Source: Gemmatimonadota bacterium (GTDB lineage Bacteria; Gemmatimonadota; Gemmatimonadetes; Longimicrobiales; Gaopeijiaceae). Taken from it: 64,000 nucleotides of DNA. The notes below the pieces were generated by a model. The model was not told where the DNA came from, made no database searches, and saw nothing but the letters and a program-made list of their open reading frames with translations. Where the stretch lies: the NCBI GenBank assembly GCA_029262115.1, contig JAJCZZ010000079.1:1-64000 (forward strand), written 5' to 3'. Shown here one piece after another: positions 4,438 through 24,513 of the stretch (the first letter of the stretch is position 1; each line of letters starts with the position of its first letter). A program made the position numbers and the translations under genes.

Positions 4438-4717
4438 GGTGGTCGGCCTGATGAATCGTGGATCGTGCTACGGCTCGTGTCGGCTACCATGCCGCTGGGA
4501 GAGCCGGTGCGCCAGCTTCGGAAGGCCGCCCGGGGGATGCGGCTCCGCGCGGGGGTGGACATCTCGCTCAACCCGATATCGTTCCCCGCATCGGACGACG
4601 CCTCGCGGCTGCCATCCCCGTGAAGAACAACGTCCGACACTCGGTTCTGCGCGTCGTGCCCTCCGTCGATCGCCTTGCTTCGGGTCAGGTCACCGCCGCA
4701 GGATAGGTGCCTGTGCC

Positions 4718-5076
4718 ATGCCACCGCGAAACCGGAAGGACGGACTACTTCCCTTCACCTGCCACGCGTGCACGCGCCGGGGCCGGGCCCAGCGTGGTGC
4801 CCGAGCGTCCATCCGGGCGCGGGCGGCCGAACTTGCCGAGACGCTCGGAGTCGATTTGCCTCCCAGTCCGCCCTACGAGTCGCTCGCGCACGCGTGCTGG
4901 CGGTGCCAGACCGAGATCTTGATCCACGCCTGGCCGGGCAGCGGCCGCAACAGCCCGCGTCGTCCCCCGGACTCGATCCCTCCCACCGTGTGCTATTCGG
5001 TCGCGGATTGGGCCGGCGATCATTGGGCCCGGCGGCTATTCTTCTGGCACGATCCGCGCGCGGTCCAAACTGCCCG
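4718..5076 (+). pseudogene. Remnant of a CxxC zinc-ribbon protein gene
   Basis: Reading from the ATG at 4718, the first 120 or so residues look protein-like: a CHAC pair near residue 15, then SLAHACWRCQTEILIHAWPG, then IPPTVCYSVADWAGDHWA and FFWHDPRA. From memory, small zinc-knuckle proteins of this type have a third CxxC pair between the HWA-like and FFWHDP-like blocks. Here about ten residues appear to be missing at that point, including that Cys pair. The frame has no stop of its own and runs on antisense into the permease gene ending at 5077, so the natural 3' end is lost. I read it as a decayed gene. The 280 bases before it (4438-4717) hold no recognisable gene. Chance similarity cannot be excluded. 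Confidence 0.35.
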
Positions 5077-7725
5077 TCAACTCGCCCTCAACGTACTCGC
5101 GGGATCCAACCGCGCGGCCCGTGTCGCTGGTACCCAACACGCGACGAGTGCGACCGCGGACAGGATCGCGAAGACGCCGAGATACGTAAGGGGATCGAGG
5201 CGCGATACATCAAAGAGAAGCGTGGAGAGCGCCTCAGTTGCGGCGGCGGCAGCGCCGAGGCCGACGACCAGCCCCAGCCCGGTGATAGAGATCCCGTTGC
5301 GGATGACCAGGGCCACGATGTCGGTTCGAGACGCACCCAGGGCGCCACGCACGCCGATCTCTCGCGCCCGTTCGGTAACACTCCCCGACAATACGCCGAA
5401 CAGCCCGACACCGGCCAGCAAGAGCGCCGACATCGCAAACGCCGCAAGGACGGTTGATACGAAGCGGCGCTGCGTCTCGGAGCGTGCGACGAGGTCGGTC
5501 ATGCTCTGAACACGGACGACGGGTTGGTTGGGGTCTACGCGTCGGATCGCCTCACGGATCGAGGGCACGAGGGCTTCGGTGTCCCCGTTCGCTTGAACCA
5601 CGATCCATCGCACCCGGTCGGCCCAGTGCCACTGATCAGACGGGACGTATACTGCCTCAGCTTCAACCGCCCCGAGCGATTCTTGCTTCACGTCTTCCAC
5701 AACACCGACCACGGTATACGGGCGGTCGATCGCCGCCCCGAACTGGAGGCGTGAGCCAATTGGGTCGTCGTAGGGGAAGAGCCGCCGGGCGAGGGACTCG
5801 CTGACAACCGCGGCTCGGGAGGCCGCATCGTCGTCCCGGCGATCCAGGTGTCGCCCCTGCATGAGCTCCACCCCCATCACATCGAGGTACCCTGGCGTGA
5901 CCGCATATCGGTACGCCGAGCCGTCTCCGCCGAGCGCGCGACCAGGCTCATGGAGGGTGAGTCCGTACATGTCGACGTCGCCGCTCAGTGGCAGCTGGCT
6001 GGTCACTCCCGCAGCGCGCACACCGGGTACGTCCCGGACCGCCTCCAGGGCCTCGCGATAGAAGCGATGGACAACGTCGTCTCCCCGGCCCAGTGCGGTG
6101 GTTGACACCTGCAGCACCACCACACCGGTGGCATCGAATCCCGGCTCGATCGCGAAAAGGCGCTGGGTGCTACGAAGGAGAAGCCCCGCCCCCACGAGAA
6201 GAACCGCCGCGAAGGCGACCTCTGTTACGACGAGCGCCCGCCGAGCGGAGAGCGTTCCCCGGATCGAGCCGCGGTGCGTCGATTGGATCCCGCGGAGCGG
6301 CGTCCGTCCGGCGCGAACTACGACCGGACCCAGACCGAAGATCACGGAGATCAGTGTCGGCAGGACGACGGCGACGAGCAGAGCGCCGACGTCTAGCCCT
6401 ACGGTATCCGTCTGCGCCAAGCTGGGTGGGCTGACTGCTAGCAGACCTGCGAGTGCGGGCTGCGCAACGATCACTCCGACGCCTGCTCCGAGAGCGGCAA
6501 GGACGAGGCTCTCCGTGAGAAGGTATCGGGCCAAGCGCGACCGCGACGCACCGAGCGCCATGCGCATCGCGATCTCACCCTGACGACGCGCGCCCCGGGC
6601 CAGCAGCAAGATCGTCAAGTTCACGCAGGCGATTCCGAGTAGCAGAGACGCCGCCCCGAGCAGAACGAGCATCGTAGGCCGGGCGTCTCGGGTCGCGGAT
6701 TCTCGGAGGCTTCGGATCGATAAGCCGGCCTTGAGGGACGCCCATACGGGCCGAACGAAGTCAGGCGCCGGGTTCGCGGCTACCGCTTCAATGCGCGAGT
6801 ATGCCTCGTCCAAGCCGAGCCCTGCTTTCAGCCGGCCGAACATCTGGAGATGGTGGCCCCACTCTCGACTGTCGAAAGACGCCGGGACCGGCTCGTACTG
6901 AAGCAGGGACCAGACGGTCGCAAGCGGAGCGGTGGCGTTCTCGAAGTTCGGCCCCATCACGCCGGTCACGGTGAAAGCCGTGCCGTCCAGACGTACGGTC
7001 CGACCCACTATCGTCGGGTCGGATCCAAATCTCAGCGCCCACAGCCGATGGCTCAGGATGACGAGGTCGGGGCCACCCGGACGGTCGGCCTCCGGATCGA
7101 AGCCGGCACCCAAGAAGGGCGTCGCGCCCAGCACGCCGAAGTACTCCGCGCCCACGCGTTGTCCCTCCAGTCGTTCCGCATCCTGAGCCCACGTCAGTGT
7201 CGGCTGCCACGGCTTGTAAGCCGCGAGCTCGTCGAACGAGCCGCTCCGCGACCGGACTTCCAGATATGTGCCGAAGGTCACCGGCACGGGAGTTCCGTCC
7301 TCAGAACGGTCGGCGACCACGACGATCCGGTTTGCGTTCAGGTACGGCAGCGCGTCGAACAGGACAGGGCGGACAGCGCTCACGATCGCAGTCGTAGCGC
7401 CGATGCCGAGTCCCAGTGTCAGAACCGCGATCACCGAGAACCCCGGGTCACGTACGAGGCGCCTGCCAGCGAGCCGCACATCGGTCCAGACGGAAACTAC
7501 GAGGTTTTCCCAGCCATATGAGCCAACCTCCTCACGGGCCGCGAGTCCATCGCCGTACCGGAGCCGAACAGTCCTGCGGGCCTCTTCCGGACTCGTCCCG
7601 CTCGCCACGAGCTCCGCCTCGGCCTGGTCCAGGTAGTGTCGCACCTCCTCGTCGATCTTTTCGGCGACCTCCGCGTGATGCATGAGCCCGCGAAGGCCCA
7701 GCCGAATGTGTCTCCAGAGCGACAC
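5077..7725 (-). CDS. ADOP family permease (FtsX/MacB-type, PadR-linked)
   Basis: The 882-residue membrane protein fits the acidobacterial duplicated orphan permease (ADOP) type. It has an N-terminal cytoplasmic helical region (about 1-85, with EEVRHYLDQAEAELVASG), a MacB-like periplasmic domain and two FtsX-like permease modules, without an ATPase encoded beside it. The first TM helix follows DPGFSVIAVLTLGLGIGA, and the final FtsX block ends at WVPATRAARLDPASTLRAS. I chose the GTG at 7725 because GAGGGG precedes it closely and it starts 4 nt after the PadR stop; longer starts run back into padR. ADOP permeases usually sit beside PadR genes and are thought to export or sense envelope-active compounds; the substrate is unknown. 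Confidence 0.9.
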   Translation of the reverse strand: MSLWRHIRLGLRGLMHHAEVAEKIDEEVRHYLDQAEAELVASGTSPEEARRTVRLRYGDGLAAREEVGSYGWENLVVSVWTDVRLAGRRLVRDPGFSVIAVLTLGLGIGATTAIVSAVRPVLFDALPYLNANRIVVVADRSEDGTPVPVTFGTYLEVRSRSGSFDELAAYKPWQPTLTWAQDAERLEGQRVGAEYFGVLGATPFLGAGFDPEADRPGGPDLVILSHRLWALRFGSDPTIVGRTVRLDGTAFTVTGVMGPNFENATAPLATVWSLLQYEPVPASFDSREWGHHLQMFGRLKAGLGLDEAYSRIEAVAANPAPDFVRPVWASLKAGLSIRSLRESATRDARPTMLVLLGAASLLLGIACVNLTILLLARGARRQGEIAMRMALGASRSRLARYLLTESLVLAALGAGVGVIVAQPALAGLLAVSPPSLAQTDTVGLDVGALLVAVVLPTLISVIFGLGPVVVRAGRTPLRGIQSTHRGSIRGTLSARRALVVTEVAFAAVLLVGAGLLLRSTQRLFAIEPGFDATGVVVLQVSTTALGRGDDVVHRFYREALEAVRDVPGVRAAGVTSQLPLSGDVDMYGLTLHEPGRALGGDGSAYRYAVTPGYLDVMGVELMQGRHLDRRDDDAASRAAVVSESLARRLFPYDDPIGSRLQFGAAIDRPYTVVGVVEDVKQESLGAVEAEAVYVPSDQWHWADRVRWIVVQANGDTEALVPSIREAIRRVDPNQPVVRVQSMTDLVARSETQRRFVSTVLAAFAMSALLLAGVGLFGVLSGSVTERAREIGVRGALGASRTDIVALVIRNGISITGLGLVVGLGAAAAATEALSTLLFDVSRLDPLTYLGVFAILSAVALVACWVPATRAARLDPASTLRAS

Positions 7726-9540: not shown

Positions 9541-10705
9541 ATGGCCTTGCTCTTCGTCGGAATGGCCGCCTGCGACCGCTCGCCGAAGGCGCACGAGGTG
9601 ATCCGCACCGCGTCCGGAGACACGACGACGGTGCGTATTCCGGCCTCATGGGGTGCCGATCCGGTCCCCGTCGACGTCGCCGTCCTGTGGCAGGACGCCG
9701 CCCTCGGCGAACCCTCGACGCTCGTGGTGTCAGGCGACGAGGTCTGGGTGGCCGACGGTGACCGCGTCCACCGAATCGGTCTCGGAGGCGCACATGTGGG
9801 ATCGGTGGGCCGGGCCGGCCAGGGCCCGGGGGAATTCGGGGGTATCATCGCACCTGGCGTGCTGGCAGATACCGTCGTGGTCGTGAACGCGCAGAACCAC
9901 CGACTCTCGCTCTTCTCCTCGGACGGAGCGCTGATCGATACCCGTCGGCTCGCCTCCCACCCCGACTACCGGAACGTCCGTCGTGAGCAGCAACTCCGCT
10001 TCGTCGACGGCGGAGTGGTGTCGTTGGCAGAGGAGATTGTCCGGCTAGATCGAAGGACCAGGGCCGCCGTCCTGTGGCAGCCGCTCGACGCCGACTCGGT
10101 GGTGGCGTTCGCCGAATTCCCCCATCTGGGCGTGGCGCGACTTCGGCCGCCTCCTGGGAGAAGCGGAGCTGTTCGGCCCCCGGGCCCTGATCGCCTTGGG
10201 CCCGGGTGGCCGGTTCGCCCACGGGAACGGTCGAGGCCCATGCCTCTCGGTCCAGTCGTTCGAGGCGCCCGATGTCCTCCGGGTCTGTCAGGATCGAGAC
10301 CCCGTACCGATCGGCCCGGGAGTGCGAAGGGTCACGCCCGAGGATGCCGCAGCCGGAGAGTCGCTGCCTCCTCAGATGCTCGAAGCGCTCGCGGCCGTGT
10401 ATGCCGAACAGACCATCCCCGATAGCTACCCGTACTTTGACGCTCTAGAGTTTGGAGACGACGGAGCCCTCTGGGTGCGGATCATCCGCAGCGACGTTCC
10501 GGACATTCACCCCGCTGCGTAGGCGCGCCGACCCGAAACGCAACCTGCCGTCCGTCTATGGGAGCGCTATGATCCGGACGGCACGCCGAGCGGTGTGTTC
10601 GCGTTTCCTAGCGCTTTTCGTCCCGTAGTATTTCGAGCGGATGGGACCGCCGGTCTTCTGACCCTACCGAGTGGCGAGAGCGCTGTCGCAGCGGGACGCT
10701 GGTGA
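9541..10705 (+). pseudogene. Broken six-bladed beta-propeller lipoprotein gene
   Basis: Reading from the ATG at 9541 gives a short hydrophobic start and a lipobox-like end (GMAAC), then a propeller-type sequence (LVVSGDEVWVADGDRVHRIG, PGEFGGIIAPG). At a run of five C at about 10119-10123 the protein-like frame jumps by one base and continues as RDFGRLLGEAELFGPRALIA and LGPGGRFAHGNGRGPCLSVQ. It then reaches an in-frame TAG at 10520-10522. Beyond that TAG the same frame still encodes family-like sequence (LWERYDPDGTPSGVFAFPSA, FRPVVF) up to TGA at 10703-10705. One frameshift plus one nonsense codon make a functional product unlikely unless the sequence is wrong. Intact relatives are common secreted lipoproteins of unknown role in this lineage. 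Confidence 0.7.
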
Positions 10706-10724
10706 ATCGCTTCAGGGAGGGACG

Positions 10725-11156
10725 ATGACGACGGATAACGGAACCACCTACCTCGAACCGACGCAGGAGTCCGGCAGGGACTTCATGCTTCGCGGGATCG
10801 AGGGCGAAGTTATCATGCTGAACCTCCTACGTTTCCGAGAGATCGCCGACTACTCCGGCACGCCGGATCTTCAGCCTGATGAGCCGATCTCGGGCGCGGC
10901 GGCCTACGATCTCTATGTCGAACACACCCTCCCTCACCTTCGCGAGTCGGGTGGCGACCTGGAGTTCGTGGGTGAGGGCGGATCGCTCCTGATCGGCCCA
11001 CCCGACGAGCGTTGGGACGCGGTTCTCCTCGTTCGCCACCGGAGTGTTCAGACCTTCATGTCCTTCGCGCAGAACGAGGCGTACCTCGGTGGGATGGGGC
11101 ATCGTCTCGCGGCAATCTCGGACTCCCGGCTGATGCCCGTGGTTCGGCGAGCGTAG
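10725..11156 (+). CDS. DUF1330 domain protein
   Basis: The 143-residue soluble protein has a ferredoxin-like alpha/beta pattern of the DUF1330 type: EVIMLNLLRFREIADYSG near the N-terminus, AAYDLYVEHTLPHLRESGG, then FVGEGGSLLIGPPDERWDAV and VRHRSVQTFMSFAQNEAYL. A purine-rich GGGAGGG lies 5-12 nt before the ATG at 10725, which fixes this start over longer frames. The downstream gene starts immediately after its TAG, so the two form an operon. Family function is undefined; some members are proposed dimeric stress-related or monooxygenase-like proteins. Nothing here narrows that. Confidence 0.8.
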   Translation: MTTDNGTTYLEPTQESGRDFMLRGIEGEVIMLNLLRFREIADYSGTPDLQPDEPISGAAAYDLYVEHTLPHLRESGGDLEFVGEGGSLLIGPPDERWDAVLLVRHRSVQTFMSFAQNEAYLGGMGHRLAAISDSRLMPVVRRA

Positions 11157-18500: not shown

Positions 18501-19193
18501 GTGCACGTCGCGATCATCATGGATGGGAACGGTCGGTGGGCGCGGGCACGCCGCCGGCCGAGGGAGTGGGGCCACCGCCAGGGCGCCAAGGCCATTCGGG
18601 CGATCGTCGAATCGGCTCCCGACGTCGGAATCGACGTCCTCACGCTCTATGCCTTTTCGGCGGACAACTGGAAGCGACCCGACGCGGAAGTGCGTGGCTT
18701 ACTCCGGCTGTTCCGTCGCTATCTCCGGGCCGAGACCCCGTCGATGGTCGAGGACGGCGTCCGCCTCCAGGTGATCGGACGTCGGGACCGCCTCCCGGCC
18801 GACCTCGTGCGGGCCATCCGGACCTCCGAGGAGGCGACCCGACACGGCTCCCGGATCACGCTTCGACTCGCGGTCGACTATTCGGCGAGGGACGCCATGG
18901 TGCGCGTCGCGCGTGTGGCGGCAGAGAGCGGCACCGTTGTCGACGAGGCCAGTTTCGCTGAGTTGATGGGTCAGATTCTGAATACGGACGACGCTGTTCC
19001 GGACGTGGACCTGTTGATACGGTCCGGAGGCGAGCAGCGGCTCAGCGACTTCCTACTCTGGGAGTGCGCCTACGCCGAACTGTACTTCACGTCCAGGATG
19101 TGGCCGGACTTCCGACCGGAGGACCTCCGAGAGGCCATGCGGGTGTTCGCGGCACGGGACCGGCGCTTCGGAATGGTCGCGGAAGCGGTCTAG
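18501..19193 (+). CDS. uppS: Cis-prenyl (undecaprenyl-type) diphosphate synthase
   Basis: The 230-residue enzyme shows all UppS landmarks: IIMDGNGRWA at the start (catalytic Asp8), WGHRQGAKAIRAIV, LTLYAFSADNWKRP, and DLLIRSGGEQRLSDFLLWEC followed by AYAELYFT. It condenses isopentenyl diphosphate units onto an allylic primer in cis. It is at the short end of the family, which begins here directly at the first motif; GTG at 18501 follows the preceding stop by 1 nt. The usual neighbours cdsA, dxr and frr are absent, and it sits with a regulator and membrane protein, so it may be a second copy making a specialised polyprenyl lipid. It converges with the next gene, overlapping by 4 nt. Confidence 0.87.
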   Translation: MHVAIIMDGNGRWARARRRPREWGHRQGAKAIRAIVESAPDVGIDVLTLYAFSADNWKRPDAEVRGLLRLFRRYLRAETPSMVEDGVRLQVIGRRDRLPADLVRAIRTSEEATRHGSRITLRLAVDYSARDAMVRVARVAAESGTVVDEASFAELMGQILNTDDAVPDVDLLIRSGGEQRLSDFLLWECAYAELYFTSRMWPDFRPEDLREAMRVFAARDRRFGMVAEAV

Positions 19194-22100
19194 AATTCCC
19201 ACCAGAGCCGCACGGCCAGGAGGTCGTCGGCTGGGTCGAGCGGACCGCTCTGATCCGTGATCGACCCCGACAGCATGAGGCCGGCGTTACGCGCCAGGCG
19301 GTAGCCGACCGACGCCTCGTAGCGCATGACGTCGTGGTCCCAGTCGGTGTCTCCCCGCCCCGGGAGCGCGAGCGGACGAAAGTCGATGGCGCCCCACCGC
19401 CCGGCCACGGAGAAGCCCGCCGCCACATCGGACTGGACTTCCAGGGTCCACGACAGGTCGCGCACGTCGTCCGACAGCCCCGGCACCTCCCATCGGTCGG
19501 CGAAAACCTCGGCGCGCATCATCATCGAGCCCCGGGCGATCGTGGCGTCAATCGACACGATCTCCTGGTGGTACACGAAACGCTCATGGCCCGACGTCAG
19601 GAGCGGCTGGATCTCCTCTTCGAGAAAGGGACCTCGATTCCAGGACGCGCCCAACGACACGGAGGGCCCTATCGCCGCGGTAACGCCCGCCACATAGGAG
19701 GGATGTTCGAAGCCGTCACGCGTCCACTCCCACAGGTCGGGTTCGCTCGACGGCGACGAGTTCATGGCGGCAAGCCGATACCCGAACGGTCCGGCTCCCC
19801 CGAGTAGCATCGCGCCCCACTGATACGGCACACCCCACACGGGCGGGGCACCCTCCTGACGGAACACGGCCGGAGTCGACAGCCAGTCGACGAATCCGTC
19901 CGGGCCGTCAGGAACGCGGGTGAACGACACGATCGTGCGGTAGTCGTACGGAAGAGGAGGCCGGACGAACGGATCGACATCGGTCGAGTGGCGCGCGGCA
20001 TACGAGCCGAACGGGCTTGCGAAGCGTCCGACCTGGCCCATGAGTACGTCCGAGCTACCCGCCAGACGGAGGAACGCCTGCTCGACCCGGGCCTCCCACT
20101 CGGACTCGGTCGGACCCGGACCTTGATCGCCCCGGACTTCCACGAGCCCGTACACGTGGTCACCGAGGAAGACGTCGACAAAGATCCGGAGGCGGGGCGA
20201 GACCCACACACCATCGCCGTAGGCCAGTCCCGCGCTGTGGCCGTTCATGGCGAAGGCATCGAGGTCCAGTCGACCGGACAGGTCGAGTTGGAAGGTGCCG
20301 GTCTCCGATATCCAGCCGAGGCCCGCGTCGGACAGACTCGGCCACCCATTCTGCGCCGAGACCGGCGCGGAGGCGCCGGACATGGCGGCCAGGAGCATCA
20401 ACTGCGGCAGCACCTTCCCGGACGTCCGGGAAGGCCGGGCCTCCTCCTCCGATGCTTTCCCCGAGGCCCGCTCGACCTCCACCGCCGATCCCTTCCGGGA
20501 CACCCGGCGGGTCGCATCGGCTTCCACTCCCTCCACCTGAAAGACCTCCACATCCGCGGCGAAGCCCTTGAACGAGCGCCCGCCCACGGCGCGGACCGAC
20601 ACCGTACGGCCGGCGGCAGCCACGACCTCCCGCGTAACCAGGATTTCACCGGCGGTGGCCCCGCTGCATAGCCGCGCAGCAAGGTTCACGACGTCTCCGA
20701 GAACGGTGTAGTTGAGCCGGTTGGCCGAGCCCATGTTGCCGGCAACGGCTTCGCCGGTATTGAGGCCGACCCCCAGCCCCAAAGGCGCGTCGCCCCGAGC
20801 CGACCGCTCCGTGTTCAACTCGTCGACGGCCTCTCGCATGGCCACCGCCGCTCGGACGGCACGCATCGCGTCGTCGGGGGCGCCGATCGGGGCACCGAAG
20901 ACCGCCATGATCTCGTCACCCACGTACTTGTCGACCACACCACCTTCCCGTTCCACGGCATCGGACAGCCGCTGCATGCACTCGTTCAGCAGGCCGATCA
21001 CACCCTGCGGCTCCATACCATCCGTGAGAGCCGTGAAGCCGCGGATATCGCCGAAGAGCACCGTCACCATGCGGTTCTCACCGCCGAGTTCGACCCCGCC
21101 GCGCATCAACTCTTCGGCCACGTCGCGGGAGACGACCTTGTTGAGTACGGATCGGTACCGTTCCTTGAGACGGAGCCCGTGGGTCATGTCGTTGAAGGCG
21201 GCGGCCAGGGCGCCGATCTCGTCCGTCGAAGACACCGAGACGTCCGCACTGTAGTCCCCACGTGCGACCCGTCCCGTGGCTCCCACCAGAGCGCGGACAG
21301 GTCGGGTGAGCCCACGACTGAGGACCGTCGCCGCCAGGACGGCGAGGGCCAGGGCGGCCAATCCCCCGAGGAGCAGGGCGCTCGTGATCCGGCGAAACGG
21401 TGCGAGGATCTCGTCGAGCGAGACCGCGACGACCCGCCAGCCTCCGTCGGTTCGCCCGGGAACGAGCGGCAGGGCACGGACCGACCAGGTGCTCCCCACC
21501 GCCCGCGCCCGCGCCCCACTGGTCGACTCCAGTTCCGGCGACACCGATCCGCCCGCGACCAGGGACGCCAACGCAGGGCCCAGCGACTCCCGGGCCAGCG
21601 GCGTGCCGACGACACAGGCCTCAGCAACGACGAAGCAGACCTCGGCCCCGGCCACCGAACCGATGCGGCGCATGTCGTCCGCGGCAATCGGCAGACCGAA
21701 GGTGATCGTGCCGAGGGGTGCGAACCGCCCTTCCAGGAGGAGCGTCTGCAGGTGGTAGAACGCGCCCTCGAAAACCCGATACGACCGGGCTTCGACCTCG
21801 GTGCCGGCCAGAAGGTCCTCGGCGACCGGACGGACTCCGACCGGGTCGCTACCCTCCATCGGATCATCGTCGTGCAGCGTCAGCAACGGGACGCCGGACG
21901 GATCTGTGACGATCACGAGGATGTCGTCGATCCCCGCCAACTGGACGTCGTAGCCGATCCGATCGCCGAACTCGGTGAGGTCCCCCGTCAGCATGGCCTG
22001 CTCGAGCGCCGCGAGCGCCCGCACTCCTCCGATCAACGGGCCGGCCAATCGCGAGATCTGGAGGAGCTGGATCTCCTCGAGCTCGGCAAGCTGCGTGACC

Positions 22101-22252
22101 GCCCCGGTGACCGCGCGATCGACCACCAGGTCCACCTGCCGCGACGTCTCCGAGCGGACGACCACGAACGTGACGGCCATGAGAATGCTGACGGTCCCGA
22201 TGAGCGCCGCGAAAATCTTGGCGGCGAAGCTCGACTGGAGTCGACGAATCAT
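19190..22252 (-). CDS. Membrane nucleotide cyclase fused to an outer-membrane-barrel-like domain
   Basis: The 1020-residue frame holds a TM helix (about 12-32), a periplasmic sensor region (33-285), a second TM helix (291-312), HAMP (313-365) and a class III cyclase (about 390-575). Cyclase metal Asp are D402 and D446; K442 and D520 suggest adenine specificity, and N523/R527 complete the active site. After a charged linker (576-612) comes a signal-peptide-like segment (614-634, ending PVSAQ). About 385 further residues look like an outer-membrane porin: alternating strands, V-S-P-R-L-R-I-F-V-D-V-F-L-G, GRFASPFGSYAARHSTDVDP, and a C-terminal W-W-E-F. No stop separates the halves. Either one chain is cut by signal peptidase, or the barrel is also translated internally (GTG at 20413). 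The cupredoxin gene precedes it by 27 nt. Confidence 0.85.
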   Translation of the reverse strand: MIRRLQSSFAAKIFAALIGTVSILMAVTFVVVRSETSRQVDLVVDRAVTGAVTQLAELEEIQLLQISRLAGPLIGGVRALAALEQAMLTGDLTEFGDRIGYDVQLAGIDDILVIVTDPSGVPLLTLHDDDPMEGSDPVGVRPVAEDLLAGTEVEARSYRVFEGAFYHLQTLLLEGRFAPLGTITFGLPIAADDMRRIGSVAGAEVCFVVAEACVVGTPLARESLGPALASLVAGGSVSPELESTSGARARAVGSTWSVRALPLVPGRTDGGWRVVAVSLDEILAPFRRITSALLLGGLAALALAVLAATVLSRGLTRPVRALVGATGRVARGDYSADVSVSSTDEIGALAAAFNDMTHGLRLKERYRSVLNKVVSRDVAEELMRGGVELGGENRMVTVLFGDIRGFTALTDGMEPQGVIGLLNECMQRLSDAVEREGGVVDKYVGDEIMAVFGAPIGAPDDAMRAVRAAVAMREAVDELNTERSARGDAPLGLGVGLNTGEAVAGNMGSANRLNYTVLGDVVNLAARLCSGATAGEILVTREVVAAAGRTVSVRAVGGRSFKGFAADVEVFQVEGVEADATRRVSRKGSAVEVERASGKASEEEARPSRTSGKVLPQLMLLAAMSGASAPVSAQNGWPSLSDAGLGWISETGTFQLDLSGRLDLDAFAMNGHSAGLAYGDGVWVSPRLRIFVDVFLGDHVYGLVEVRGDQGPGPTESEWEARVEQAFLRLAGSSDVLMGQVGRFASPFGSYAARHSTDVDPFVRPPLPYDYRTIVSFTRVPDGPDGFVDWLSTPAVFRQEGAPPVWGVPYQWGAMLLGGAGPFGYRLAAMNSSPSSEPDLWEWTRDGFEHPSYVAGVTAAIGPSVSLGASWNRGPFLEEEIQPLLTSGHERFVYHQEIVSIDATIARGSMMMRAEVFADRWEVPGLSDDVRDLSWTLEVQSDVAAGFSVAGRWGAIDFRPLALPGRGDTDWDHDVMRYEASVGYRLARNAGLMLSGSITDQSGPLDPADDLLAVRLWWEF
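20413..20434. repeat. Perfect 22-bp palindrome at the cyclase/barrel junction
   Basis: The sequence CCTTCCCGGAC is followed immediately by its exact reverse complement, giving 11+11 bp with no loop. It encodes residues 607-613 of the cyclase fusion, directly before the signal-peptide-like segment and touching a GTG codon at 20413-20411. It could form a cruciform or an mRNA hairpin, or bind a dimeric protein. Confidence 0.8.
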
Positions 22253-22279: not shown

Positions 22280-22963
22280 CTACCCGATCTCGACCTGAAC
22301 GCGCGCAACACCACCGTCCGTGACATCGACCGTGCGCTCCACTTCGCCGAGATCGGCGTGCCAGAACACCAGGGTGCGCGAACCGGCCGGGACGCCCTCG
22401 AGCGTAAACGTCCCGTCCGAAGCCACCCGGGTGTGGTGGGGGTTCTCCGCGACCACGATGACGGCACGCATCGACTCATGCACTTCGCAGTATACCTTGA
22501 CCACCCCTGGGCGATCGAAGCGTACGTTCTTGGCATCTCCCTGGGGATACCGGCCCAGATCGAACCGGGCCGGGTCGGAGTACGAGAACACGTTGTGGAA
22601 GAAGTCGTCCCGATTGGGAAAGCGGACCGTCGTTCCCACGGGGACGATCAGAGCGCCGGGCGCGAAGACCGTGTCCGCCTGGACCATCTCCATCGGCGCG
22701 CGGGAAGGGCTGGGCGCGCCCAGGGGACCCTTGACCCAGACGAGAACGGGAAGCTGCTGCACGGTCCGTGCGCTTCGGGGAGCTCGTCCATACCGCTCGG
22801 CCGTCCGACGCGGTGGGGGCATGCGAACCGTTACCGTGCCGACCACTCGTCCGACGGCCGGTAACACCGCCGCAGCCTGAACCATGATGGGTCCCGGGGC
22901 CAGCGTCAGCGAGGCCAGCGCGGTCCCGAGTCCGAGGGTCAACGCAATCGTGTGGGTCTTCAT
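22280..22963 (-). CDS. Periplasmic cupredoxin-like copper protein
   Basis: The 227-residue protein has a signal peptide (MKTHTIALTLGLGTALASL, cleavage after about residue 30) and a plastocyanin-like fold. Candidate type-1 copper ligands are His123 (FFHNVFS), Cys159, His162 and Met165 (YCEVHESM, a C-x2-H-x2-M loop). This loop is shorter than in classical plastocyanin and typical of the group annotated as methylamine-utilisation-like proteins. The last 50 residues (GTFTLEGVPAGSRTLVFWHA) form a carboxypeptidase-regulatory-like beta-sandwich. It would carry electrons or sense copper/redox state in the periplasm. It is followed 27 nt later by the cyclase-barrel gene and preceded by the degenerate kinase gene on the same strand. 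Confidence 0.85.
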   Translation of the reverse strand: MKTHTIALTLGLGTALASLTLAPGPIMVQAAAVLPAVGRVVGTVTVRMPPPRRTAERYGRAPRSARTVQQLPVLVWVKGPLGAPSPSRAPMEMVQADTVFAPGALIVPVGTTVRFPNRDDFFHNVFSYSDPARFDLGRYPQGDAKNVRFDRPGVVKVYCEVHESMRAVIVVAENPHHTRVASDGTFTLEGVPAGSRTLVFWHADLGEVERTVDVTDGGVARVQVEIG

Positions 22964-23004: not shown

Positions 23005-24513
23005 CTAGGACCCTCTCGTGGGCTCGTCGTCCAGGCCGTCAGGAGGTCCGACCAAGGGAAGGTACAAAATAGCGGTAACTCCAAGTCCCGGCCTGTTGAC
23101 GAGCCGGAGCGAACCGCCGTTCTGCTGCGCGAAGCCGTGTGCGGCGGACAAACCCAGCCCGAGGTGATCCGGCCACGTCGAGTAGAACGCCTCGATGGCT
23201 CGAAGGGCCACATCGGGGGGCATCCCACCGCCTTGATCGTCGACCCGGACGCCCACGAGGGGGCGGCCAGGGCCGAGTTCATCCACCGGAGTGTTGGACG
23301 GTTCGACCAGACGGAGGGTGACCGGCGTCTCGCCTTCGCCCGTTGCCTGACCGGCGTTCTCGATCAGGGCCAGGACAACCTCCTGCAGAAGCGAGCGATC
23401 GACGGAGACCCACCAATCCGTCGCACTGAATTTCAGTGCCACCCGTGCGGGGTGGGCGGCGCGCCGGATGCTCGCGTGCCAGGACCGTAGCGTATCAGCC
23501 AGGTGTATGACCTCACGTTCGGTCTCGCGAGCGTGGCCGACGGCCAGAAGCCGGTCGACCAAGGCTCGGGCCCGGTCGACGGCCACGTCCAAGGCGACCA
23601 CGGCGTCGGTCGCACCGGTTTCACGGAGCAGGTTCACCTGACCGCGTACGACCGCCATCAAGTCCCCAACCTCGTTCGCCACGCCTCCCGCCATGAGCGC
23701 GATGTCCTCCAAACGACGCGCACGGGCGACCCTTTCGTCGATCACCCGTAGCTCGGACAGGTCGAGCACGCTGCCCATCACGGTATCGTCCTCGGGACGG
23801 TGACGGAGCGACATCACCACATGGACCCGACCCTCCTCGTGGCAGCGAAGGCTCCGGCGTCGAGCGGAAACCCGTCCCGACGATCGGACGAGGGCGGACA
23901 GGTACTGGTACTCGACGGGAATCGGCAGCAAGGACCGGAACGACGTGCCTACCACGTCGTCGGTGGTCTCGTACCCGAGCAGATCCGCGAACGTGCTATC
24001 CGCCTCTGTTATCATCCCGTCGGCATCGAAGACGAAGGTACCCCAGACTTTCCCTTCATGGAGCCGCCGGAACAGGTCGGCCCGAGTTCGACGTGCATCG
24101 CCCAGATACGCCTCCGGCGTGGCATCACGAAGGACGAAGACGGTGCCGGTGCGCATCTTTCCGTCGAACAATGGTGCGAGGACTCCCGACACGGGAAGCC
24201 CTCGGCCATCCGCAGTTTCGAGCGTCGTACCGTCCGGCAGATGGATGGCCCTTCCCTCGTCCGGGCCCGGCGCGGCCAATGCCTCCCCGACGCCGGAGCC
24301 GTCGGGCATGGCCAGATCGACGACCTCTGCCACCGGTCGATCGAGCACTTCCTCAACGCGGCGTGCCGTGAGGAACTCGGCCGCCGGATTGAAGTCGCGC
24401 ACGAGGGCTTCGTGGTCCACCAGGATGACGGCTTCGCGCACACTGCGAAGGAGAACCGTCAACTCCGCTTCGCCGAACTCGGCCCGTGCCGAGGCGACCC
24501 TGGACTCTACCAT
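23005..24513 (-). CDS. PAS-domain histidine-kinase-like protein lacking the phospho-His
   Basis: The 502-residue cytoplasmic protein has two PAS-like domains (about 17-135 and 147-255), a dimerisation helix region and a C-terminal GHKL ATPase. The ATPase has an N-box (ALIENAGQA), a G1 box (VDDQGGGMPPD) and a G2 box (HLGLGLSAAHGFA). In the H-box, where NtrB-like kinases read G-G-V-A-H, this protein reads AGGVANEVGDLM: Asn280 replaces the phospho-accepting His. The ATP site looks intact, so it may bind ATP and signal by conformation, or act on a partner, rather than autophosphorylate in the standard way. It is the first gene of a minus-strand set with the cupredoxin and the cyclase fusion, and divergent from the LuxR-type regulator. 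Confidence 0.85.
   Translation of the reverse strand: MVESRVASARAEFGEAELTVLLRSVREAVILVDHEALVRDFNPAAEFLTARRVEEVLDRPVAEVVDLAMPDGSGVGEALAAPGPDEGRAIHLPDGTTLETADGRGLPVSGVLAPLFDGKMRTGTVFVLRDATPEAYLGDARRTRADLFRRLHEGKVWGTFVFDADGMITEADSTFADLLGYETTDDVVGTSFRSLLPIPVEYQYLSALVRSSGRVSARRRSLRCHEEGRVHVVMSLRHRPEDDTVMGSVLDLSELRVIDERVARARRLEDIALMAGGVANEVGDLMAVVRGQVNLLRETGATDAVVALDVAVDRARALVDRLLAVGHARETEREVIHLADTLRSWHASIRRAAHPARVALKFSATDWWVSVDRSLLQEVVLALIENAGQATGEGETPVTLRLVEPSNTPVDELGPGRPLVGVRVDDQGGGMPPDVALRAIEAFYSTWPDHLGLGLSAAHGFAQQNGGSLRLVNRPGLGVTAILYLPLVGPPDGLDDEPTRGS

Follow-up and report, generated by a model that had tools for sequence, protein, structure and literature searches.

In a 64,000-nucleotide (nt) stretch of a Gemmatimonadota genome (contig JAJCZZ010000079.1 of assembly GCA_029262115.1, positions 1 to 64,000; here called the window), one gene encodes a membrane-bound sensor with a predicted adenylyl cyclase output and, on the same chain, a signal-peptide-like segment followed by a porin-type barrel. 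Inner-membrane helices and outer-membrane barrels are normally encoded by separate genes. The gene probably specifies a polyprotein that signal peptidase I would cut in two, sending the cyclase to the inner membrane and the porin to the outer one. The first-pass annotation of the window had described a single uninterrupted frame of 1020 codons, and open-frame reading bears this out: the frame lies on the minus strand, with its ATG at 22252 and its stop at 19190-19192, and contains no internal stop; the coordinates had been placed correctly. Its parts, together with two upstream genes, are listed in Table 1.

Table 1. Features of the fused gene and of the genes upstream of it, in window coordinates
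Feature	Position	Strand	Basis or remark
Fused gene: sensor-HAMP-adenylyl cyclase-internal signal-like segment-porin barrel	19190..22252	minus	1020 aa; same fusion in 12 other sequences
First membrane helix, ~residues 9-33	22154..22228	minus	Hydrophobic sequence; model helix 9-75
Periplasmic sensor domain, ~residues 34-285	21398..22153	minus	hhalign link to dCache_3-type kinase sensors; model
Second membrane helix, ~residues 286-309	21326..21397	minus	Hydrophobic sequence; model helix 280-330
HAMP domain, residues 310-361	21170..21325	minus	Pfam PF00672, E 7.2e-15
Predicted class III (IIIb-type) adenylyl cyclase catalytic domain, residues 395-563	20564..21070	minus	Pfam PF00211 Guanylate_cyc, E 8.2e-24
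Cytoplasmic linker, residues 577-613	20414..20524	minus	Disordered in model; basic right ahead of hydrophobic core
Internal signal-peptide-like segment, residues 614-633, predicted cut between A633 and Q634	20354..20413	minus	Hydrophobic core; equals N-terminal signal peptide of separate porin genes
Predicted 16-stranded porin barrel, residues 634-1020, C-terminal WWEF	19193..20353	minus	Alignment, AlphaFold2 model, fold matches
Secreted protein with cupredoxin domain	22280..22963	minus	27 nt upstream of fused gene; Pfam Copper-bind above cutoff
PAS-PAS histidine kinase	23005..24513	minus	First gene of same-strand run; not beside most other fused copies

Searched against Pfam, the fused protein matched only HAMP and Guanylate_cyc, its C-terminal part remaining without a match. 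The cyclase domain scores 84.6 bits (curated cut-off, 21.9) and has the two metal-binding aspartates (D402, D446), the substrate lysine (K442), and the transition-state asparagine and arginine (N523, R527), all of which are invariant in an alignment of 16 relatives. This agrees with the catalytic set first proposed except for D520, which has to be dropped because the position is occupied by D, G, E, T, R, or S among the 16 sequences. The second substrate-selecting position of class III cyclases is located seven residues ahead of the asparagine, and hence it is T516, likewise invariant and aligned with the corresponding threonine of CyaB, that belongs in the set. Based on this invariant Thr516, the fused enzyme is assigned to the class IIIb-type adenylyl cyclases and is predicted to make cyclic AMP (cAMP) from ATP. 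The nearest solved relatives of the domain, Cya2 (2W01), CyaB (3R5G), and CyaC (1WC0), can be aligned over its full length (E to 1e-39). CyaB shares the threonine, whereas Cya2, a guanylyl cyclase, has a glutamate in place of the adenylate-type Lys442. Unlike these three entries, the fused protein has a periplasmic sensor as well as a C-terminal signal segment and barrel. The genome also encodes seven cyclic nucleotide monophosphate (cNMP)-binding proteins.

The first-pass annotation had also put a porin-like barrel of about 385 residues at the C terminus, and structure prediction points the same way. An AlphaFold2 model of residues 635-1020, built on a 14-sequence alignment, has 16 strands (predicted local distance difference test [pLDDT] 82.5, predicted template modeling score [pTM] 0.83), and its best solved matches are 16-stranded porins, i.e., OprP (Z 27.4), OprO (Z 27.0), OmpE36/OmpF, and others. 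The C-terminal aromatic residue, F1020, is invariant in an 11-sequence alignment. From the model, the C-terminal part is a porin-type barrel, predicted to reside in the outer membrane. Compared with OprP/OprO, OmpF/OmpC, and Vibrio OmpT, it has the same 16 strands and a matching fold (Z 24-27 over ~290-310 residues) with only 10-14% sequence identity and, unlike them, is made as the tail of an inner-membrane sensor. No curated porin family in Pfam or NCBIfam covers the window barrel; one other fused member weakly matches OMP_b-brl/Porin_4. Some separate porin relatives carry a CxxCH heme-attachment motif (CTYCH, CAGCH, CDACH) before the third strand, which is absent from the fused ones (unfused genes at L054 4879-6114, L056 6001-7245, L057 2336-3571, and L058 1065-2300; L and G numbers are our labels for loci and genomes). 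These separate proteins are possibly heme-bearing porins.

A whole-chain AlphaFold2 model (pLDDT 68) was trusted for the separate parts only, given its pTM of 0.39. It places a helix at 9-75, a sensor fold at 112-278, and a second helix at 280-330, followed by HAMP, the cyclase (393-576), a disordered stretch (578-613), a short helix (614-628), and the barrel. This topology agrees with an internal segment oriented with its N terminus in and its C terminus out, consistent with the earlier argument that a C-out orientation suits an internal signal peptide. The segment itself was upheld, with its boundary corrected from 614-634 to 614-633 and the likely cut falling between A633 and Q634.

The same cyclase-barrel fusion is open in 13 divergent sequences including the window, roughly 37-52% identical. 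A first search for relatives found single cyclase-plus-barrel frames in G037, G084, G079, G036, G080, G063, G016, and G067; a query with the barrel only, requiring no cyclase, added G150, G153, and G131; and JACQVX010000014 came from a collection of named genomes. All other named records are Gemmatimonadota metagenome-assembled genomes, some labeled Longimicrobiales; JACQVX010000014 is assigned to Planctomycetota by its label alone. Among the barrel hits, none had a co-directional cyclase gene ahead of the barrel out of frame. A further sequence, G002, keeps the frame across the junction and has a TAG within the catalytic domain, and G017, whose cyclase and barrel are split over the ends of two contigs (L050, L051), was excluded from the proven fusions.

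An assembly error, a chance read-through of two genes, or a pseudogene would leave a similar trace, and the assemblies are drafts, several of them labeled as metagenome-assembled; the barrel remnant on a cupredoxin start in G014, the remnants in G041 and G151, and the TAG in the G002 cyclase also show that relatives decay. However, 13 open fusions in divergent genomes, with invariant catalytic residues, conserved barrel motifs, and low ratios of nonsynonymous to synonymous substitution (dN/dS) in cyclase and barrel (0.2-0.35), leave next to no room for this explanation. An assembly or frameshift artefact in particular was rejected on account of the 12 further open fusions. No frame repair is needed at the junction, where a missed base had been thought able to hide a stop. 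Nor are the homologues always two genes: fused relatives are common, and separate-gene relatives also occur, in which an N-terminal signal peptide of the barrel takes the place of the internal segment.

The junction was compared in 16 sequences (the 13 cyclase fusions, G002, and two kinase fusions, G130 and G332). All 16 have a hydrophobic core (mean Kyte-Doolittle 1.7-2.9) with Ala at -1, followed at +1 by Gln in 15 and by Glu in one; free porins carry the same pattern of hydrophobic core and Ala-Gln at their N termini. In a set of 39 N-terminal signal peptides drawn from the window and the fetched Gemmatimonadota loci, Gln was the commonest residue after the cut predicted by a crude script (10/39). 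A preference for Gln at +1 (Q rule) has been reported for Bacteroidetes, not for the whole Fibrobacteres-Chlorobi-Bacteroidetes (FCB) group (PMC5837995). The genome has two signal peptidase I genes.

Two products could also arise if the porin were translated separately from an internal start near the junction, the through-frame being incidental or yielding a by-product. A separate porin gene is the ancestral state, some members have a GTG near the junction, a few of these with a Shine-Dalgarno-like sequence upstream (G037, G150, G067), and an ATG stands at the start of the core in G063 and G130. Against this, an ATG occurs within 25 codons ahead of the core in 17 of 21 separate porin genes and in only 1 of the 13 cyclase fusions, namely G063, where it is located at the core itself. 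Four members (G084, G079, G036, and G080) have no ATG, GTG, or TTG in those 25 codons, their nearest start-like codons being 39, 52, 62, and 32 codons upstream, respectively. In the window, the possible start at the core (GTG at 614) would give a signal peptide lacking a basic n-region. No two of the 13 linkers have the same length (120-363 nt), yet every one is in frame, which would be needless for a separately translated barrel and hence counts against an internal start; in G016 the catalytic domain runs nearly straight into the signal core. A Shine-Dalgarno scan was insufficient alone to settle the matter, as start-like codons within the catalytic region score equally well (average, -4.0 kcal/mol; n=225), and scores are poor for the three genes of the window itself. 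The missing starts, the differing in-frame linkers, and the near-direct junction of G016 together make internal initiation unlikely, the argument being weaker for the GTG-bearing members.

Alternatively, the chain might stay uncut, with the porin tethered to the cyclase and either spanning both membranes or forming a periplasmic domain that is not inserted. The cut is a prediction, and permanent tethers are conceivable in principle. In the models, however, only ~20 residues lie between the helix and the first strand of the barrel, too short a span for a normal periplasm, which makes a whole chain inserted in both membranes implausible. The Ala-Gln cut-site pattern is found in every member (with Glu at +1 once) despite a freely changing linker, the barrel retains its fold and C-terminal aromatic end, and the separated forms make the porin as a free exported protein. 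We therefore consider an uncut chain very unlikely.

Cleavage by signal peptidase I thus stays the probable fate of the chain. The single chain and the internal signal-like helix are read from the sequence; from them we infer the cut, equal synthesis, and sensing. One chain would be translated, comprising a two-transmembrane sensor, HAMP, the adenylyl cyclase, the linker, the signal-peptide-like helix, and the porin. With cyclase and linker in the cytoplasm, the third hydrophobic helix (614-633) would enter the membrane N-in/C-out in the fashion of a signal peptide. A cut between A633 and Q634 would then free the porin to the periplasm for insertion into the outer membrane, and the cyclase would remain in the inner membrane, with the signal helix probably serving it as a third anchor. 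The fusion would fix equal synthesis of the sensor and one dedicated porin, and this fixed co-production is probably its advantage. Release of barrel and cyclase at a 1:1 ratio and a link from cAMP signaling to outer-membrane composition, both put forward in the first-pass annotation, likewise stay proposals. The porin may admit a small solute, or it and the copper cupredoxin encoded upstream may jointly handle a signal linked to copper or redox state; the sensor would read this solute or signal and report it as cAMP.

Several points weigh against this interpretation. The hydrophobic core of the window is the weakest of the set (Kyte-Doolittle 1.7), and the linker is weakly constrained (dN/dS about 1.2 and 0.6, versus 0.2-0.6 in the domains). 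Within the order, 27 of 154 genomes carry the barrel, a patchy distribution, and copies have decayed in G014, G041, and G151. The sensed cue, be it copper, redox state, or a small solute, is a guess drawn from the cupredoxin and the porin. Selection acting on the linker itself was also considered, and those dN/dS values gave no sign of it. In G014 (L049 6591-7388), the start of the cupredoxin runs in one frame straight into the final quarter of the barrel, as a deletion of the cyclase and most of the barrel would leave it.

Fused and separate forms occur side by side. G148 and G154, which share a genus group with the fused G150 and G153, have the cyclase (596 and 641 codons) and the barrel (478 and 468 codons) as convergent genes 13 bp apart; their cyclase stops shortly past the catalytic domain, and their barrel has its own signal peptide. 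In G038 the barrel directly follows the cupredoxin with its own ATG. Other members of the phylum pair a separate barrel gene with a sensor that is a histidine kinase or a longer kinase. Two kinases are themselves fused to the barrel, a HAMP-HisKA-HATPase kinase in one 1030-codon frame (G130) and a HisKA-HATPase-receiver hybrid kinase in one 1229-codon frame (G332). On a barrel tree, built by a quick method and with G017 scored as fused though its contigs break at the junction, the fused/separate label has to change five times, and well-supported branches enforce each change. This is most simply read as three fusions (with cyclase, kinase, and hybrid kinase) and two separations, so that the fusion would have arisen at least three times with different outputs and been undone about twice. 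That the joining arose at least three times with different sensors suggests that the link between the two parts is useful.

The cyclase sensor was named neither by Pfam nor by solved structures, and its one profile link is a distant match to the dCache_3-type sensor of the kinase version (hhalign probability 94.7, E 6.4e-8), dCache_3 being matched by the sensors of several kinase-type sister modules. From this distant kinship, one sensing module seems to have exchanged its output domain. Alignment of six cyclase-type periplasmic sensors shows two invariant cysteines seven positions apart (C206 and C213 in the window protein), which might form a disulfide, a redox site, or a metal site beside the copper cupredoxin.

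The cupredoxin adjoins the sensor or the porin at most loci. All 28 of its intact copies, from cyclase and kinase forms alike, retain the ligands of type 1 copper (H, C, H, M), so that it is predicted to bind copper. Judged by these neighborhoods, the conserved module consists of a secreted cupredoxin, an inner-membrane sensor, and a porin. Operons of histidine kinase, porin, and cupredoxin in other Gemmatimonadota are similarly composed, with a HAMP sensor (several of the dCache_3 type); there the kinase replaces the cyclase, and the porin is usually separate with its own signal peptide. In G036, a histidine kinase with the cyclase's sensor domain (L041 5283-7526) precedes the genes of the cupredoxin and the fusion, so that this locus, from its sequence, holds both output types. 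The PAS-PAS kinase of the window is probably cotranscribed with the module, yet is not conserved with it. In G016 and G017 the module is flanked by genes for a cNMP-binding patatin/NTE-type protein and a second cNMP-binding protein, the latter with a methyltransferase domain in G016 (L044 3860-5860 [-] and 9652-11130 [+]; L050 2796-4625 [+] and 4632-5423 [+]). Both are likely effectors of the cyclase.

The cyclase class and the porin fold are themselves ordinary. The first-pass annotation knew of no bacterial protein of this design, a statement that needs qualifying: FbcH of Bradyrhizobium japonicum is a cytochrome b/c1 polyprotein, encoded by one gene and split by signal peptidase at an internal signal. 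It is the closest mechanistic precedent by analogy, likewise having two functional units in one open frame; at the junction of the window protein, the hydrophobic segment is a candidate internal signal peptide. The two products of FbcH remain in the inner membrane as subunits of a single enzyme complex, whereas here the first product would be a signaling enzyme and the second, after a predicted cut, an outer-membrane porin. Cyc2, a fused cytochrome-porin (PMC8406198), also ends in a porin barrel; it joins cytochrome and porin in what is as a whole an outer-membrane protein, without an inner-membrane partner. No report of a cyclase-porin or kinase-porin fusion was found in the open literature, which is weak evidence, most subscription papers lying outside it. 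We know of no description of the two-membrane combination, its repeated origin, or a cupredoxin-sensor-porin module; the module of cupredoxin, dCache-type sensor with swappable output, and porin is apparently undescribed.

More tentatively, the fused genes may represent a new kind of envelope sensor, in which the sensor and its dedicated porin are born as one chain, so that each sensor made goes with the processing and outer-membrane delivery of one porin. The cyclase or kinase could then report the state of delivery or the admitted solute, in a design that has arisen more than once next to a copper cupredoxin, its output being a cyclase, a histidine kinase, or a hybrid kinase.

Overall, certain bacteria of soil and water encode a predicted inner-membrane signaling enzyme and a predicted outer-membrane pore as one chain, with an apparent cut site in between. 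If the proposed processing is true, this conserved, repeatedly evolved chain bound for two membranes would imply that an internal signal peptide can serve as a routine route to two products from one bacterial gene. It would also tie one porin to a cyclic-nucleotide or phosphorelay sensor in a concrete way that can be tested.

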